Assembly (NCBI GenBank): GCA_902516435.1
Contig: CABXYF010000001.1
Coordinates: forward strand, 1-64,000
DNA length: 64,000 nt
Reading direction: 5' to 3'
DNA from: an uncultured Pelagibacteraceae bacterium
Lineage (GTDB): Bacteria > Pseudomonadota > Alphaproteobacteria > Pelagibacterales > Pelagibacteraceae
Part shown: one piece after another, positions 1 to 49,847 of the stretch
Numbering within the stretch: position 1 is the stretch's first letter
Layout: each line of letters begins with the position of its first letter
Made by a program: the position numbers and the translations under genes
Notes under the pieces: generated by a model
What the model saw: the letters and a program-made list of their open reading frames with translations, nothing else
Told to the model about the DNA's origin: nothing
Database searches by the model: none

Positions 1-885
1 CTCATTAGTAGCTCATTTAGAACTGACGCCTTTTTTGGACTTGAGGAAAATATTGGTTATTTACTTTTCTTATTAACATTTTTAATTTATTTATATTATT
101 TAGAAAAAAAAAATAATTATTACTTATTCTTTTTAATTTTAATTGCCTCCTTAACATTTTATACAAGGCAAACTTATGCATTTGTTTCAATAATTATATA
201 TTTAGCAATCATAAATACAAATCAATTACTATCAAAAAAAAACTTCGCTATTACATTTCTTTTTATTATATTTCTTCTTCCGTCCTTATATTTTTTTTAT
301 AATTGGGGATCTTTAATGCCAACAGAGGCAGCCGAACGTTTAGTTCCTTTTAATTACAACAATATAGCTATAATTTTTGGGATGTTTGTAATTTTTAATA
401 TTCCTTTTTTCATAAATGAGTTAATAAAAAATAGAACAAATATAATATCAAGTAAAAATATTGGAAAATTAATTTTAATACCCATCTTTTTTATTATTTA
501 TGCTTATACTTTTTGGAATATACCTTACTCAGATTTTGGTGGAGGACCTTTGTATAAAATATATTTAAATTTTTCAACTTTTAAACCACTGTACCTATTT
601 TTTTCTTTTTTAGGATTAATTTCAACTATTTATTTTTCATTTAAAAACTATCGTTTATCTATTTTTTTTATATTTTTTATATTTATTTATTGCTTTGCAG
701 ATAACCTTTTTTTCTCTTATTTAGATCCATTAATGTTATTATCTTTATTAATTTTCCATGATAGAATTATTTTTGATTTAAAAAAAAATATAATTTATTC
801 CCTAAGTGTATATATGTATTTTTTAACTTTACATTTAAGTTGGATTTATTACTTTCATATAATTATTGGTGACACTGTAAGATAA
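1..885 (+). CDS. Polytopic membrane protein of polysaccharide locus (5'-truncated by window edge)
   Basis: Frame 1 is open from base 1 through the listed ORF 316..885; many hydrophobic TM segments; adjacent to sugar-nucleotide genes. Confidence 0.6.
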   Translation, partial: LISSSFRTDAFFGLEENIGYLLFLLTFLIYLYYLEKKNNYYLFFLILIASLTFYTRQTYAFVSIIIYLAIINTNQLLSKKNFAITFLFIIFLLPSLYFFYNWGSLMPTEAAERLVPFNYNNIAIIFGMFVIFNIPFFINELIKNRTNIISSKNIGKLILIPIFFIIYAYTFWNIPYSDFGGGPLYKIYLNFSTFKPLYLFFSFLGLISTIYFSFKNYRLSIFFIFFIFIYCFADNLFFSYLDPLMLLSLLIFHDRIIFDLKKNIIYSLSVYMYFLTLHLSWIYYFHIIIGDTVR

Positions 886-42670: not shown

Positions 42671-44740
42671 ATGTCTGAGTTTTTTTTAGAACTATTTAGC
42701 GAGGAAATACCCGCAGGTCTTCAAAGAAATTTAAGGGAAAACTTATTGAAATCTTTTAATGATTTTTTTGAAGAGAAATCTATTCCATTTAAAAGAAGTT
42801 CTTCCTATTCAACCCCGAATAGATTGGTGATATTATTTGAAGGGCTTCAAAAACAAACAATTCTTAAGTCTGAGGAAATAAAAGGTCCGAGTACAAAAGC
42901 CCCAGATCTAGCTATAGAGGGCTTTATACGATCAAATCAAACTCTAAAACAAAATCTTTATGAAAAAGAAACTGAAAAAGGTAACTTTTTCTTCTTTAAA
43001 ACGAAATCAAAAAAACTTTATACCCACGAGTTATTAGAAGAGTTTGTTCCAAAAATATTAGATAAAATTCAATGGAAAAAATCAATGCGTTGGGGGGATT
43101 TTAGTTTAAATTGGGGTAGACCGCTCAAGTCTATTTTGGCAATCTTTAACAAAAAAACACTAATATTTAAATTTCATCATATTCAGTCATCTAATTTTAC
43201 TTTTGTAGATAAAGATTTTGAAGAAAAGAAAATAAAATTTTCTGATTTTAAAAAATATAAAAATTTCTTTAAAAAGAAAAAAATAATAATTGACCCTGTT
43301 GAAAGAAAAAAAATTATTGAAAAAAAATTTCATTTACTTTTAAAAAAGAAAAATATTGTTATAGAGCAAAATCCAAAGCTATTGGAAGAAGTTGTTGATT
43401 TAATAGATCAACCCAATGTTCTTGTTTGCCAGTTTGATAAAAAGTTTTTAAAAATACCAAAAGAGATTTTAATAATCACAATGCAATACCATCAAAAATA
43501 TTTTCCTACTTTTGATAATAAGGGAGGTATTACAAACGAATTTTTAGTTGTTTCAAATAAAAAAGATCTAAAAGGGTTAATAAAGCTAGGTAACGAGAGA
43601 GTAGTAGAAGCAAGACTTACCGATGCAAAATTCTTTTGGCAAAAAGATAAATCTCAAAACTTAGTAAAACAAGTCTCAAATTTAAAATCTATGAATTATT
43701 TTAAGGGCTTGGGAAGTTATTTCGATAAAGTTCAAAGAATGAGAAAGCTCGGAGGAATGCTTTCAGATGAACTATTAATAAGTAAAGAAAAAGTGGAATT
43801 ATCAGCATCAATCTCTAAAGTCGATTTATTATCTGAACTAGTGGGTGAGTTTCCTGAGCTTCAAGGGATTATGGGTGGTTATTTTTCTGAGGCACAAGGT
43901 TTTGACAATGATGTAGCACTATCAATAAGTGAACAATATTTACCTTCAGGGTCTGGGTCAAGGGTTCCTAAAAAACCTTTTAGTATAGCACTAGCTCTGT
44001 CAGACAAAATAGATACACTTGTAGGTTTTTTTGGAATTAACCAAAAACCAACAAGCTCTAAAGATCCATTTGCTCTTAGAAGATTAACTTTAGGAGTAAT
44101 TAGAATAATTGTAGAAAATAATAATCATATTAAAATAAGAGATTTGATTAACTATTCATCTTCACTCTATATGGATCAAGGCTTCACATTTGAAAATAAA
44201 TTACTTCAAAAAGAACTTTCTGAATTTCTAATGGACCGACTAAAATTCTATATGAAGGAAAAAAATATTCGAAATGATATTATTCAAGCATCTATCAATT
44301 CACATAATTTAGATCAACTTGTAATAATTTTTGAAAAGGCAAAATATTTAGATAAAATAATTTCAAAATCAAACGGACAAGAGATAATATCAAGTTATAA
44401 AAGAGCCTCAAACATCTTGGAAAGTGAGTTGAAAGGACAGAATTTTGATCTTTCAAATATAACTGACCCTGGTGTTTTCAAGACAGATTTTGAAAAAAAT
44501 TTGTTTAAAAAGATAAATGGATTAAGGAAATATTTTTCTTCAATTAATAAAGATGAAGTTTATTCTGAAACTCTTAATAACTTACTAGATGCCAAAAAAG
44601 TAATTAACGAATTTTTTGACAATGTTGTAGTTAATGACGTTGATCCAGGTATTCGCAAAAATAGACTAGAACTTATTCAAATCTTATGTAAAACCTTCAA
44701 CAACTATGTTAATTTTTCTTTAGTAGACTCCCAAAAATGA
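42671..44740 (+). CDS. glyS: Glycyl-tRNA synthetase beta subunit
   Basis: FFLELFSEEIPAGLQ, MRWGDFSLNWGRPLKSI; directly follows glyQ. Confidence 0.96.
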   Translation: MSEFFLELFSEEIPAGLQRNLRENLLKSFNDFFEEKSIPFKRSSSYSTPNRLVILFEGLQKQTILKSEEIKGPSTKAPDLAIEGFIRSNQTLKQNLYEKETEKGNFFFFKTKSKKLYTHELLEEFVPKILDKIQWKKSMRWGDFSLNWGRPLKSILAIFNKKTLIFKFHHIQSSNFTFVDKDFEEKKIKFSDFKKYKNFFKKKKIIIDPVERKKIIEKKFHLLLKKKNIVIEQNPKLLEEVVDLIDQPNVLVCQFDKKFLKIPKEILIITMQYHQKYFPTFDNKGGITNEFLVVSNKKDLKGLIKLGNERVVEARLTDAKFFWQKDKSQNLVKQVSNLKSMNYFKGLGSYFDKVQRMRKLGGMLSDELLISKEKVELSASISKVDLLSELVGEFPELQGIMGGYFSEAQGFDNDVALSISEQYLPSGSGSRVPKKPFSIALALSDKIDTLVGFFGINQKPTSSKDPFALRRLTLGVIRIIVENNNHIKIRDLINYSSSLYMDQGFTFENKLLQKELSEFLMDRLKFYMKEKNIRNDIIQASINSHNLDQLVIIFEKAKYLDKIISKSNGQEIISSYKRASNILESELKGQNFDLSNITDPGVFKTDFEKNLFKKINGLRKYFSSINKDEVYSETLNNLLDAKKVINEFFDNVVVNDVDPGIRKNRLELIQILCKTFNNYVNFSLVDSQK

Positions 44741-47394
44741 AAAAACTAATTTTAAATTTCAAATCTCACGATAGCAAAAAAATTAAAATCCCAAGAAATT
44801 TTTTAGGTGGAAAAGGAGCCAACCTTTCAGAAATGGGTCGAATGAGATTACCGGTTCCACCTGGATTTACTATTTCTACAAAAGTATGTGATTTATTTTA
44901 TAAAAATAAAAAAAAACTTAATAAAAGTATAGTCAAATCAATTAAAAAAGAATTAAAGGCTGTTGAAAAGGAAGTTTCAAAAAAATTTGGTGATTTAAAA
45001 AATCCATTATTACTTTCAGTCAGATCTGGAGCTAGAGTTTCTATGCCTGGTATGATGGATACAATTTTAAATTTAGGATTAAATGATAAAACCGTTAAAG
45101 CCCTAGCATCAAAAACCTTTAATGGTCGATTTGCCAAAGATAGCTACAGAAGGTTTATTCAAATGTATGGCAATGTAGTAATGGGCGTTGAAGGGTATCA
45201 TTTTGAAGAATTAATTGAGAATTACAAACTTACAAAAGGTGTTTTATTGGACACTGATTTAGATGAAAATGACTGGGATGGACTTATTGAAGATTTTAAA
45301 AGAACAGTTAGGGAAAAAGCAAATAGAGATTTTCCTCAAGATGTTCATGAACAGTTGTTAGGAGCAATCAGTGCAGTATTTTTGTCTTGGGATAGTAAGA
45401 GAGCAAAAATCTATAGAAAATTAAATCATATACCTGCAGAGTGGGGAACAGCAGTTAATATTCAATCAATGGTTTTTGGAAACATGGGAGACGACTGTGC
45501 AACTGGTGTTGTTTTTACAAGAAATCCATCAGACGGTGAAAACGAAATTTATGGAGAATATTTAATTAATGCACAAGGAGAGGATGTTGTTGCTGGAACA
45601 AGGACTCCACAATATATAACTAAAAAAGCTCGACAAAATGCTAAAGTTAAAGCTCCGTCAATGGAAGAGTCTATGCCCAAAGTTTATAGACAACTTTATA
45701 AGATCCTAAAAAAATTAGAAAAACACTACAAAGATATGCAGGATGTAGAGTTTACAGTTGAAAATAAAAAGCTGTGGATGCTTCAAACACGTTCTGGAAA
45801 AAGAACTGCAAAATCTGCAATTAAAATTGCAGTTGATATGGTTAAAGAAAAATTAATTTCAAAAAAAGACGCTGTGTTAAGAATTGACCCACACTCACTT
45901 GATACACTTCTTCATCCAACTCTAGATGAAAAAAGCACAATAAATGTAATTGCAAATGGCTTGCCCGCATCACCAGGTGCTGCGAGTGGTAAAGTTGTAT
46001 TCACATCTGAGGAAGCAGAAAAGCTAACATCCATGATGCAGGACACAATATTAGTTAGAGTAGAAACCTCTCCTGAAGATATACAAGGAATGCATGCAGC
46101 TAAAGGAATCTTAACTGCAAGAGGCGGAATGACAAGCCATGCAGCAGTTGTAGCAAGAGGAATGGGAAGACCTTGTGTTTCAGGTTCGAGTGAAATTGAT
46201 ATAAATTATGAAAATAAGTCATTTAAAACTTCATCTATTAAAATTAAAGAGGGTGACATAATAACAATAGATGGCTCAACAGGAAGAATAATCGAAGGTA
46301 GCGTTGCAACTGTAAAGCCAGAAATGTCGGGTGATTTTTCAAAATTAATGTCGTGGGCTGATAGTTATAGAAAATTAAATATAAGAACAAATTCAGAAAC
46401 CCCAAAAGATACCAAAACCGCAAAAGATTTTGGTGCTGAAGGCATTGGACTTTGCAGAACTGAGCACATGTTTTTTGATGAAGAGAGAATCTTATCTGTA
46501 AGAGAAATGATACTTTCTAAAACTAAAGAAGATAGAGCTAAAGCTTTAGGTAAACTTTTACCACATCAAAAAAAAGACTTCACTGAAATTTTTAAGATTA
46601 TGAATGGCTTACCAGTGACAGTAAGATTGTTAGATCCTCCTTTACATGAATTTTTACCAAGAACAAATAAAGAAATTAGCGAATTAGCAGAAATTGTTAA
46701 TCTTTCGGTAAAAGAGGTTGAAACAAGGATTGTGGAACTTCATGAACAAAATCCAATGCTAGGGCACAGAGGTTGCAGATTAGCTATATCATTTCCTGAA
46801 ATATATGAGATGCAATGCAGAGCAATTTTTGAAGCATTATGTGAGCTTAAAAAAAATAAAATTAAATCAGCGTTCCCCGAGATTATGATTCCACTAGTTT
46901 CTACAGAGGCTGAAATTAAAATAATGAAAGATTTAGTCGAAAGAATAGCAAGTATGGTTCAAAAAGAAAATAAATTAAAAATAGACTTCATGGTTGGAAC
47001 GATGATTGAGCTCCCAAGAGCAGCTATCAAAGCAAAAGAAATAGCAAAATACGCAGAATTTTTTAGTTTCGGTACAAATGATTTAACACAAACTACTTTT
47101 GGAATTAGTAGAGATGATAGTGGAAAATTTCTAAATGATTACTTAGAAAATAAAATATTTTCTATTGATCCTTTTGTTTCAATTGACGAAGGAGTTTCAG
47201 ATTTGGTTGAGATTGCTGTTGCGAAAGGAAAGAGCCAAAATAAAAAGATAAAACTAGGGATCTGTGGAGAGCATGGTGGAGATCCAAAAAGTATTTATTT
47301 TTGCGCTAAAGCCGGTCTTCATTATGTATCTTGTTCCCCTTATAGAGTTCCAGTTGCTAGATTAGCAGCAGCTCAGGCAGAATTAAAAAAATAA
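44737..47394 (+). CDS. ppdK: Pyruvate, phosphate dikinase
   Basis: LGGKGANLSEM, GGMTSHAAVVARGMGRPCV active-site His, FGTNDLTQTT. Confidence 0.98.
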   Translation: MKKLILNFKSHDSKKIKIPRNFLGGKGANLSEMGRMRLPVPPGFTISTKVCDLFYKNKKKLNKSIVKSIKKELKAVEKEVSKKFGDLKNPLLLSVRSGARVSMPGMMDTILNLGLNDKTVKALASKTFNGRFAKDSYRRFIQMYGNVVMGVEGYHFEELIENYKLTKGVLLDTDLDENDWDGLIEDFKRTVREKANRDFPQDVHEQLLGAISAVFLSWDSKRAKIYRKLNHIPAEWGTAVNIQSMVFGNMGDDCATGVVFTRNPSDGENEIYGEYLINAQGEDVVAGTRTPQYITKKARQNAKVKAPSMEESMPKVYRQLYKILKKLEKHYKDMQDVEFTVENKKLWMLQTRSGKRTAKSAIKIAVDMVKEKLISKKDAVLRIDPHSLDTLLHPTLDEKSTINVIANGLPASPGAASGKVVFTSEEAEKLTSMMQDTILVRVETSPEDIQGMHAAKGILTARGGMTSHAAVVARGMGRPCVSGSSEIDINYENKSFKTSSIKIKEGDIITIDGSTGRIIEGSVATVKPEMSGDFSKLMSWADSYRKLNIRTNSETPKDTKTAKDFGAEGIGLCRTEHMFFDEERILSVREMILSKTKEDRAKALGKLLPHQKKDFTEIFKIMNGLPVTVRLLDPPLHEFLPRTNKEISELAEIVNLSVKEVETRIVELHEQNPMLGHRGCRLAISFPEIYEMQCRAIFEALCELKKNKIKSAFPEIMIPLVSTEAEIKIMKDLVERIASMVQKENKLKIDFMVGTMIELPRAAIKAKEIAKYAEFFSFGTNDLTQTTFGISRDDSGKFLNDYLENKIFSIDPFVSIDEGVSDLVEIAVAKGKSQNKKIKLGICGEHGGDPKSIYFCAKAGLHYVSCSPYRVPVARLAAAQAELKK

Positions 47395-47406
47395 TAATTT
47401 TAATTA

Positions 47407-47510
47407 GGGGTGTTCTGTTGTCAGGTGCCCCAAGCTTTGTTTCAATAATCCTTATATTTCAGCAATTATCAATCGTAAAATTAAAACAATTAGAAAATAA
47501 TTCCGAATAG
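47407..47510 (-). other. Degenerate partial duplicate of the ssrA (tmRNA) coding-piece 3' region
   Basis: 47407..47431 GGGGTGTTCTGTTGTCAGGTGCCCC matches the tmRNA end 48600..48624 at 23/25; a 9-nt AGCAATTAT match follows at 47461 (resume-codon region in the intact copy), then a CCGAA-containing motif. Confidence 0.5.
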
Positions 47511-47582
47511 ATTCCAAACAAAATAACGTTCGGAATAGATCTGTCTTTTTGTAAAAATGTTTAATAAACTGTATCTTAAATT

Positions 47583-48509
47583 ATGAAAGTCTTTTCAACG
47601 ATAATTCTCACGTGTCTAACGGTATTACTGTTATGCAGTGAAGTTAATGCAAAAAAATATAAAGTAAATGATGTAGTTGAAAATCAATTTATCATGAATA
47701 AAAAATTTCAATTAAATTTACCCAAAGGTAAATGGGTAGTAGTTGAAAGGGACTTTGCATTTTATTATGGTCTTGCTAGTAAAGTTTACTCTTTGATTAG
47801 AATAGAAAATAATGCAGCTGTAGAATGGATAGAAATTGGTGAAATGAAAACTGCAGGAGTTCTTGAGACATATGTAAACCAGGCAATATATCAAGCAATT
47901 TTTAAAAATAAATATGATGGGTGCTATGACCGTCCTGAATACTTTATTGTTAAAGTTTATAAAAAAGGTAGCAGCCATAATTGTTTGGTAATTGATCATT
48001 CTGATGTACACAAAGATTTTTATACTCCAGATGATCCAGAAATTTCTAATGCACGTTTAAAAAAATGGATAAGAGACAATAATATTCAAATACCTAAAGT
48101 GGGTCTATCTAGTTTTCATGCTTATTTTTCTAGGTTGGCTTCTGGCAAATGGTATTTATTATTCTATGGCATTGATCCAAAAATTCTTAATGCACCAAAA
48201 AATAAATTTGTGAGTGAGGAAACTTCAGAATATCATAGAAATAATATTTCTAATTACCCTGAACACCAGAAAATCATGGACAAGTGGGTTTCAATTTCTG
48301 CAATGAGACATATCGAATTTGAAAATATAATTAAAATTTTAGATAGACACAAACTAGACTTAACTGTACTTGCACCTTCTTCATCTAAATTAGATACAAA
48401 TTTTTCAATAGACATTATAAATCAACTAAATAAACTAAGCGATTTATACAAAAGCGGTGTATTAACAAAAATTGAATTTGAAAAAGCTAAAAAGAAAATA
48501 TTAGACTAA
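47583..48509 (+). CDS. Secreted orphan protein with C-terminal SHOCT-like domain
   Basis: N-terminal signal peptide (MKVFSTIILTCLTVLLLCSEVNA); C-terminal INQLNKLSDLYKSGVLTKIEFEKAKKKIL is SHOCT-like; central part unrecognised. Confidence 0.7.
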   Translation: MKVFSTIILTCLTVLLLCSEVNAKKYKVNDVVENQFIMNKKFQLNLPKGKWVVVERDFAFYYGLASKVYSLIRIENNAAVEWIEIGEMKTAGVLETYVNQAIYQAIFKNKYDGCYDRPEYFIVKVYKKGSSHNCLVIDHSDVHKDFYTPDDPEISNARLKKWIRDNNIQIPKVGLSSFHAYFSRLASGKWYLLFYGIDPKILNAPKNKFVSEETSEYHRNNISNYPEHQKIMDKWVSISAMRHIEFENIIKILDRHKLDLTVLAPSSSKLDTNFSIDIINQLNKLSDLYKSGVLTKIEFEKAKKKILD

Positions 48510-48599
48510 ATCTTGAAAATAATCCCGAACACAGCCCGAATCCTATGGTTGTATTTTTTAAATAACGTTGATACTGAAAACTAAATTAAATAATGAGAA

Positions 48600-48858
48600 G
48601 GGGCGTTCTGTTGCCAGGTGCCCCAGACCCCGTTTGCTTAATTAACTGAGTTAATTAGGCAGCAAGTGCGTAACTTTCGTTAGCAATTATAAATTAGCCC
48701 GTTTCGGTGGAACAATCCCGAACGAAAGAATAGCCTTTAGACATCCGTCGAATCTAGTTCACCCCCATAAGTTGTAATGGTGGAGGTGGTGGGTACTGCC
48801 CCCACGTCCGCAATGGTTATTACGAAATTCGTTTATCGTCGTAGTTGGAAAACCAACT
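48600..48858 (-). ncRNA. ssrA: Permuted two-piece (alphaproteobacterial) tmRNA; acceptor piece ends at 48778 (CCA), 11-nt intervening loop 48767..48777, coding piece starts at 48766
   Basis: Reverse complement contains GGGGGTGAACTAGATTCGACGG (tmRNA 5' signature), ...GGACGTGGG...CCCACCACCTCCACCA (acceptor 3' end), 7-bp acceptor pairing GGGGGTG/CACCTCC, tag ORF GCT AAC GAA AGT TAC GCA CTT GCT GCC TAA, terminal hairpin GGGGC...GCCCC; outer 5' limit approximate. Confidence 0.92.
48655..48684 (-). other. tmRNA proteolysis tag reading frame ANESYALAA-stop
   Basis: Minus-strand codons GCT AAC GAA AGT TAC GCA CTT GCT GCC TAA inside ssrA; ends in the canonical ALAA-type degron. Confidence 0.9.
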
Positions 48859-48863
48859 TTATT

Positions 48864-48891
48864 AATATAAAAGGAATTACAACAGATTCAA
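48864..48891 (-). promoter_or_regulatory. Putative sigma-70 promoter for ssrA
   Basis: Minus strand TTGAAT (48891-48886) - 16 nt - TATATT (48869-48864), just upstream of the acceptor piece and in the thyX leader. Confidence 0.5.
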
Positions 48892-48899
48892 GAACAATC

Positions 48900-49847
48900 A
48901 TGAAACTTACAAAAGAACAAGCAGAAGAAATTAAAAATCAACAATCTCAAAGTAATCAAACTAAAAGAGTTACTGTACCAGAGCTTGAAAAAATTCTATA
49001 TGAAGCAATCCCAGCTTTAGATCATGGATTTGTAAGAGTTGTTGATTATATGGGTGATGACACATCAATAGTCCAATCAGCTAGAGTGTCATATGGAAAA
49101 GGAACAAAACAAGTTTCAACTGACAAAGGTTTAATTAAATATTTAATGAGACATTGGCACAGTACTCCATTCGAAATGTGTGAAATTAAATATCATGTTA
49201 AGCTTCCAATATTTATTGCCAGACAATGGATTAGACACAGAACTGCAAATGTAAATGAATATTCCGCAAGGTATTCAATTCTAGATAAAGAATTTTATTT
49301 GCCATCAAAAGAAAATTTAGCTGCTCAATCCACTAGTAATAGACAGGGTAGAGGAGATGTCTTGGAAGGAAAACAGGCTGAGGAAGTTTTAGAACTATTA
49401 AAAAGCGATGCAGAGAGAACTTATGATAATTATGAGACTATGCTAAATGAAAGATTTGACGGATCAACTATTGATGAAAATAAAAAAGGTTTAGCAAGAG
49501 AACTTGCTAGAATGAATTTGACATTAAACACCTATACTCAATGGTATTGGAAAACTGATTTATTAAATTTAATGAATTTTTTAAGATTAAGAGCTGATAG
49601 TCACGCACAATATGAAATTAGAGTTTATGCCGATATAATGCTAGATACTGTAAAGAAATGGGTTCCTACAACTTATGATGCTTTTATGGATTATAGAGTT
49701 GGTGGCACTGAGGTTTCTGCAAAAGGGAAATTAATTATTCAAAAACTTATCAAAGGTGAAAATGTAGATGTTGAAAGTTCTGGATTATCAAAAAGAGAAT
49801 GGAACGAATTAATGGATGCATTTGATCTTAAAGATAAACTAATTTGA
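48900..49847 (+). CDS. thyX: Flavin-dependent thymidylate synthase ThyX
   Basis: [15 protein letters not shown] signature; true start [10 protein letters not shown] at 48900; the 41 upstream residues of the listed ORF (48777 start) are antisense to tmRNA. Confidence 0.93.

Follow-up and report, generated by a model that had tools for sequence, protein, structure and literature searches.

The closest described systems are CIMEs, the ssrA islands of Dehalococcoides, integron cassettes and phage satellites. According to PMC5704250, CIMEs (Pavlovic 2004; Bellanger 2011) are cis-mobilizable and move by accretion with ICEs or IMEs, from which they arise by decay and whose attachment sites they share; they keep attL and attR, have no integration or transfer genes and form tandem arrays at one site. 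The Dehalococcoides ssrA islands depend on serine recombinases (DsiB/DsiA), and their insertion point is the T-loop of the tmRNA. They lie in tandem with the 3' end of ssrA repeated directly at their borders, carry variable cargo and in some cases have no integrase (PMC3146451). Integron cassettes are small, mostly single-gene and mostly co-oriented, possess a hairpin-forming end site and occur in arrays. P4-like phage satellites, PICIs and tycheposon-type elements combine a tyrosine integrase with a phage-type primase at the attachment site of an RNA gene; phage satellites rely on a helper phage for packaging. For the SAR11 bacteria, the most abundant heterotrophs of the ocean, which are held to carry few mobile elements and are the archetype of genome streamlining, no description of cassettes at ssrA was found in the open-access literature, to which the search was confined.

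A stretch of 64,000 nucleotides from the SAR11 (Pelagibacter-type) genome of an uncultured Pelagibacteraceae bacterium (contig CABXYF010000001.1; hereafter the window) was analyzed, and a compact segment was located between ppdK and ssrA. Taken as a whole, positions 47407-48599 are probably best explained as a non-autonomous gene cassette that is mobilised by an integrase from elsewhere. The features of the locus are listed below, where HP denotes the terminal hairpin.

44737..47394, plus strand: ppdK (pyruvate, phosphate dikinase), the chromosomal left flank
47407..47431, plus strand: left HP, the distal attachment-site copy, GGGGTGTTCTGTTGTCAGGTGCCCC, from the repeat search
47432..47475, plus strand: left terminal segment, aagctttgtttcaataatccttatatttcagcaattatcaatcg, conserved in elements with other cargo
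47500..47518, plus strand: left arm-type-like pair ATTCCGAA-TAG-ATTCCAAA, repeating every 11 bp, with its start 68 bp from HP
47528..47536, minus strand: inverted third copy of the arm motif, GTTCGGAAT, from sequence inspection
47583..48509, plus strand: cargo gene for a 308-aa protein with an N-terminal signal-like segment and a C-terminal SHOCT domain
48522..48540, plus strand: right arm-type-like pair ATCCCGAA-CAC-AGCCCGAA, repeating every 11 bp, with its start 78 bp before HP
48546..48599, plus strand: right terminal segment, likewise conserved, gttgtattttttaaataacgttgatactg..aaactaaattaa..aatgagaa
48600..48624, plus strand: right HP, the ssrA-proximal attachment-site copy and the hairpin that ends the tmRNA coding piece at its 3' side
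48596..48895, minus strand: ssrA, a permuted two-piece alphaproteobacterial tmRNA and the intact target gene, from Rfam and ARAGORN
48900..49847, plus strand: thyX, the chromosomal right flank past ssrA

The two 25-bp HP copies lie in the same orientation and are identical at 23 of 25 positions, so the original prediction was accurate in both coordinates and identity. No third match with three or fewer mismatches was detected in the 64-kb window, where shuffled sequences gave an expectation of 0, and chance similarity of the two repeats was rejected by the same shuffles. The right copy was predicted to be the terminal hairpin of the tmRNA coding piece. Rfam (RF01849, 222 bits, 48895-48596) and ARAGORN (tag ANESYALAA) agreed with this and placed the hairpin at the 3' terminus of a permuted alpha-tmRNA, intact and encoded on the minus strand. 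The left copy gave a weak Rfam match to the tmRNA 3' end (24 bits, under the gathering threshold) and stands 16 nt past ppdK, exactly where empty alleles have their only HP. It has two substitutions and may now be a poorer site. The insertion duplicates the HP core and leaves the tmRNA whole.

The prediction of a lone SHOCT-domain gene between the repeats also agreed with the annotation. The cassette holds one ORF only, with no integrase and no other integration or transfer genes. This ORF is intact, and its C-terminus matches the SHOCT domain (PF09851; E value, 6e-7). The cargo gene is kept under purifying selection rather than decaying, because its dN/dS among the window, G367 and G304 is approximately 0.2. 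SHOCT relatives at the ppdK-ssrA locus were found in G367 (74%), G304 (65%) and G070 (43%). In several genomes, other relatives of the cargo gene (45-49%) were observed with fabI on one side and the pnp region on the other (L301-L309); HP was absent within the fetched flanks of these loci, and other genomes have HP cassettes in the same neighbourhood.

The ppdK-ssrA region was compared across 52 distinct alleles. Eight were strictly empty, with the order ppdK, 15-21 nt, one HP and ssrA, and among them were relatives whose ppdK C-terminus is 96.5, 97 and 98% identical. A further 14 of the 52 alleles contained one or more additional HPs, all oriented alike and bounding different genes. The element of SAG-MED22 (L087, G411), for example, matches the window at its left end (HP-aaactttgtttc..aatccttatatttcagcaatta) and at its right end (ccgaacaca..ccgaatcc..gttgtattttt..aaat.acgttgatactg.aaactaaattaa..aatgagaa-HP), with a 167-aa lipoprotein-like protein in place of the SHOCT protein. 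The original prediction had proposed to look for an empty site and for other cargo between the repeats, and both were found. The prediction was thus borne out in part. It was right that ssrA had received an insertion bounded by attachment-site repeats and lacking an integrase, and right in suggesting a cargo element of very small size in genomes of the SAR11 type. The view of the locus as a decayed scar was mostly wrong, given its two ends, the arm-type repeats, the intact gene and the low dN/dS. The cassette is one of a large family that is also found at other loci, and integrase-bearing relatives exist at the ssrA site.

Of the 399 genomes sampled, 340 contained HP; all 57 near-complete genomes did so, and 21 of these 57 have at least two copies. 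Neighbouring HPs less than 10 kb apart formed 110 pairs in the same orientation and none in the opposite orientation, some of the loci overlapping. The elements of at least 400 bp numbered 82 distinct ones with a median length of 1.1 kb (0.38-7.5 kb), mostly of one or two genes, and their ORFs were co-oriented with HP at a ratio of 132:23. HPs also form tandem arrays and occupy other gene ends, such as the 3' ends of pnp and rnhA. The cargo includes a complete type I restriction-modification system (L089), a UvrD/GajB-like helicase cluster (L093), a trypsin-domain protein that resembles RT-protease systems (L091), a cluster of a HATPase and a sigma70-region-4 protein (L098) and a pilin-like protein (L085). 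GIY-YIG nucleases (L088, 6316-8055; L094, 2395-3819), one of them similar to group I intron endonucleases, lipoproteins and type I restriction-modification were encoded between the HPs at ssrA, and numerous small secreted proteins are also among the cargo. At a locus distant from ssrA, G028 has an array of five HPs with a SHOCT relative (37%) inside.

Lambda-type integrases act on an attP whose core is flanked by arm-type sites. The ends of the SAR11 elements tend to hold two direct repeats of approximately 8 bp with an 11-bp period. Strict GC-rich pairs were detected at 35 left and 37 right ends of the 82 elements, compared to 3.2% of random 190-bp segments from the same loci. A period scan gave an excess at 11 bp alone (39 and 35 elements; 0-4 at other periods), and the pairs lay only at +56..72 relative to the left HP and at -64..-84 relative to the right one. 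The motifs vary by element (CCGAA, CCCGTAC, GTGCGGA, GACGCCA, GACGAGT, GTGTGCC and others) and match between the two ends of one element: 4.74 5-mers were shared by own ends versus 0.78 by permuted partners (47 pairs; 0 of 5000 permutations), and this held within distance classes too. The mini-element L258, in which both end segments fall on one site, can be discounted with no effect on the result. In the window, the right pair belongs to the same CCGAA-type family as the left pair, and these pairs add to what the original prediction had described. The core flanked by adjacent direct-repeat arm pairs corresponds in sequence layout to a lambda-type attP, and each cassette therefore appears to carry a whole attP, with its candidate arm sites split by the cargo.

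Empty and filled alleles could also be told apart cleanly at a second site, the rnhA 3' end. The empty allele (G350) reads GGTG-CACCTGGCAACAGAAC-TGCCC, and the filled allele (G306) reads GGTG-core-GCCCC on the rnhA side and AGGG-core-TGCCC on the far side, so that the flanks are swapped reciprocally around a 16-bp core inside HP. On these junction sequences, the swap is as expected of conservative site-specific recombination. Gene-free mini-inserts of approximately 140 bp, found at rnhA in G244 and at ssrA in G036, carry a variant core GGGACGAGAAACAGAACGCCCC, which narrows the exchange to about AACAGAAC. No match to the HP core or the mini-insert was found among GenBank phage records.

A search for the mobilising enzyme by HMMs and regular expressions, with working positive controls, detected no tyrosine recombinase among the ORFs of the sampled HP loci. 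Neither a serine recombinase (PF00239) nor a Y1 transposase was found in 20 genomes, and a serine recombinase or a Y1/REP transposase was accordingly rejected as the mover. Integrase-bearing elements at the ssrA HP were identified in two of the 399 genomes, G184 and G265, whose integrases share more than 50% identity. The 6.2-kb element of G184 lies between two HPs at ssrA and encodes a phage-type primase and a tyrosine integrase (phrog_1; E value, 9e-56), the latter separated from the ssrA HP by approximately 70 bp; its left arm pair is off the canonical distance, and its right arm resembles that of L261. The G265 integrase (52% identity), found beside the ssrA HP in the genus-wide search, belongs to an element whose other end, on a second contig, has an HP adjoining tRNA-Leu; the arm motif there matches, and a gene resembling a primase is present. 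The 18-mer arm pair of G265, GACGCCACCATGACGCCA, recurs at the ends of integrase-less cassettes (G034/L058 and L273), and a close variant occurs in G083/L100. These two elements share arm motifs with other cassettes; the CCGAA motif of the window is in neither of them. Other phage-type integrases in SAR11 adjoin tRNA-Met, tRNA-Leu or tRNA-Asn. In three tRNA-Met islands with such an integrase (L328, L329 and L331), the neighbouring genes are methylase-like and specificity-like, candidates for type I restriction-modification.

The SAR11 cassettes share with CIMEs the attachment sites at both ends (HPs and conserved ends, with empty sites to compare), the lack of integration and transfer genes and the tandem arrays. 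Unlike CIMEs, they are far smaller, often with one gene, have arm-type-like pairs at both ends, are much commoner than their integrase-bearing relatives and use other gene ends too. They resemble the Dehalococcoides islands in their tandem arrangement, bordering repeats, variable cargo and lack of an integrase. In SAR11, however, insertion is into the 3' hairpin of a tmRNA that is permuted, and no enzymes other than tyrosine integrases are linked to the site, with no homolog of the DsiB type (PF00239) in the 20 genomes. The likeness to integron cassettes is superficial: it extends to size, gene number, orientation, hairpin and arrays, but there is no intI/attI platform beside the array, the arms are of the phage attP type, and attC architecture (GTTRRRY/RYYYAAC) is lacking; on inspection, HP has GTTCTGT and GTTGCCA, neither of which fits GTTRRRY. 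With both a tyrosine integrase and a phage-type primase at an RNA-gene attachment site, the G184 and G265 elements are similar to P4-like satellites, PICIs and tycheposons, whereas the window cassette has neither gene.

Other explanations of the locus were considered. That a larger integrase-bearing island at ssrA shrank to one gene is unlikely. The substitutions in the left HP would fit such a history, as would G367, in which a related SHOCT gene sits at the ssrA site and the left HP is missing, and CIME-type decay is documented for the Dehalococcoides ssrA islands (PMC3146451). However, the same compact layout with intact ends recurs in 82 distinct elements with varied cargo, the window and SAG-MED22 match at their ends though their genes differ, and the cargo is under purifying selection. 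It is a little less likely still that a tyrosine recombinase of approximately 325 aa, present as one copy per genome in most SAR11 and scoring far under the XerC/XerD cut-offs, moves the cassettes in trans in an integron-like manner. This protein is the sole recombinase in most genomes (PF00589 in 53 of 57 near-complete genomes), and the absence of serine recombinases and Y1 transposases from the 20 genomes would also favour it. In the sampled cases, its gene lies amid variable glycosyltransferase-type genes (G000:C32:714-1256 in L128; L118-L141) with no HP nearby, and has directly upstream a conserved palindrome of about 35 bp, ATTACTAATGATAATTAATTGTTATCAATAGTAAT. This HVR recombinase is improbable as the mover: its own site bears no resemblance to HP, and a single enzyme would leave the element-specific, end-matched arm motifs unexplained.

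Homologous recombination or natural transformation alone, shuffling alleles between the short HPs, is very improbable as the origin of this pattern. HP is 25 bp long, and flanking homology would be expected to spread existing alleles within SAR11, so homologous recombination may act as a secondary spreader of cassettes, but it accounts neither for the end-matched 11-bp pairs at fixed positions nor for the integrase elements at the same core. There is hardly any likelihood that the left hairpin is an independent ppdK terminator that resembles the tmRNA end through convergence or shared function. HP folds on either strand, and ectopic HPs are found at gene 3' ends (pnp, rnhA and others), which would suit a terminator. 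The explanation was rejected because the empty alleles carry a single HP, common to ppdK and ssrA; furthermore, both copies in the window lack a U-tract, and the copies follow the element ends. Where the TTACCCGG variant occurs, ssrA and cassettes of the genome carry it alike, as in the G028 array and its own ssrA.

Precise site-specific recombination of the window cassette into the HP core at the ssrA 3' end (attB) is strongly supported. The excised circle would read right arm (CCGAA pair), HP core and left arm (CCGAA pair and inverted copy), closed by the SHOCT gene, leaving a single attachment site. A lambda-type tyrosine integrase that is not encoded by the cassette would bind the core and the arm-type pairs and exchange strands; its most likely source would be satellite-like elements with the ssrA core as their own site, such as those of G184 and G265. 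This helper could act in trans on the circle or in cis after tandem accretion, and the element-specific arm motif would decide which integrase moves which cassette. From their sequence organization, the cassettes are probably CIME-like and mobilised in trans or cis by rare satellite-like integrase elements. It is tentatively suggested that SAR11 may keep a shared pool of integrase-less single-gene cassettes, with one core (the tmRNA 3' hairpin) and element-specific arm-type codes, every cassette responding solely to an integrase able to read its motif, as a distributed integron whose integrases reside mainly in rare satellites or phages and which spreads defence and secreted-protein genes.

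Integrase-less cassettes at ssrA and a few gene ends offer a concrete exchange route for defence and surface or secreted proteins, and make testable the swapping of SAR11 accessory genes without plasmids or many prophages. The end-matched arm motifs provide a key to pair each cassette with its helper integrase. In the scan of HP contigs, all but one of the matches listed were from Pelagibacterales. The exception (L253, JALRKE010000158.1), a contig of 647 bp assigned to Nanopelagicaceae, has a SAR11-like ppdK end and ppdK-HP-ssrA junction, and this placement is probably a binning error. On the other side of ssrA, insertions between thyX and the tmRNA acceptor piece, with no HP there, were seen at L047, L062, L067 and L073. 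HP copies also recur 3' of a gene for a small secreted 68-aa protein (GSCPMMAK..) at L041, L045, L049, L100, L105, L109 and L115, and a relative of this gene is the ssrA cassette itself in G014 (L052).
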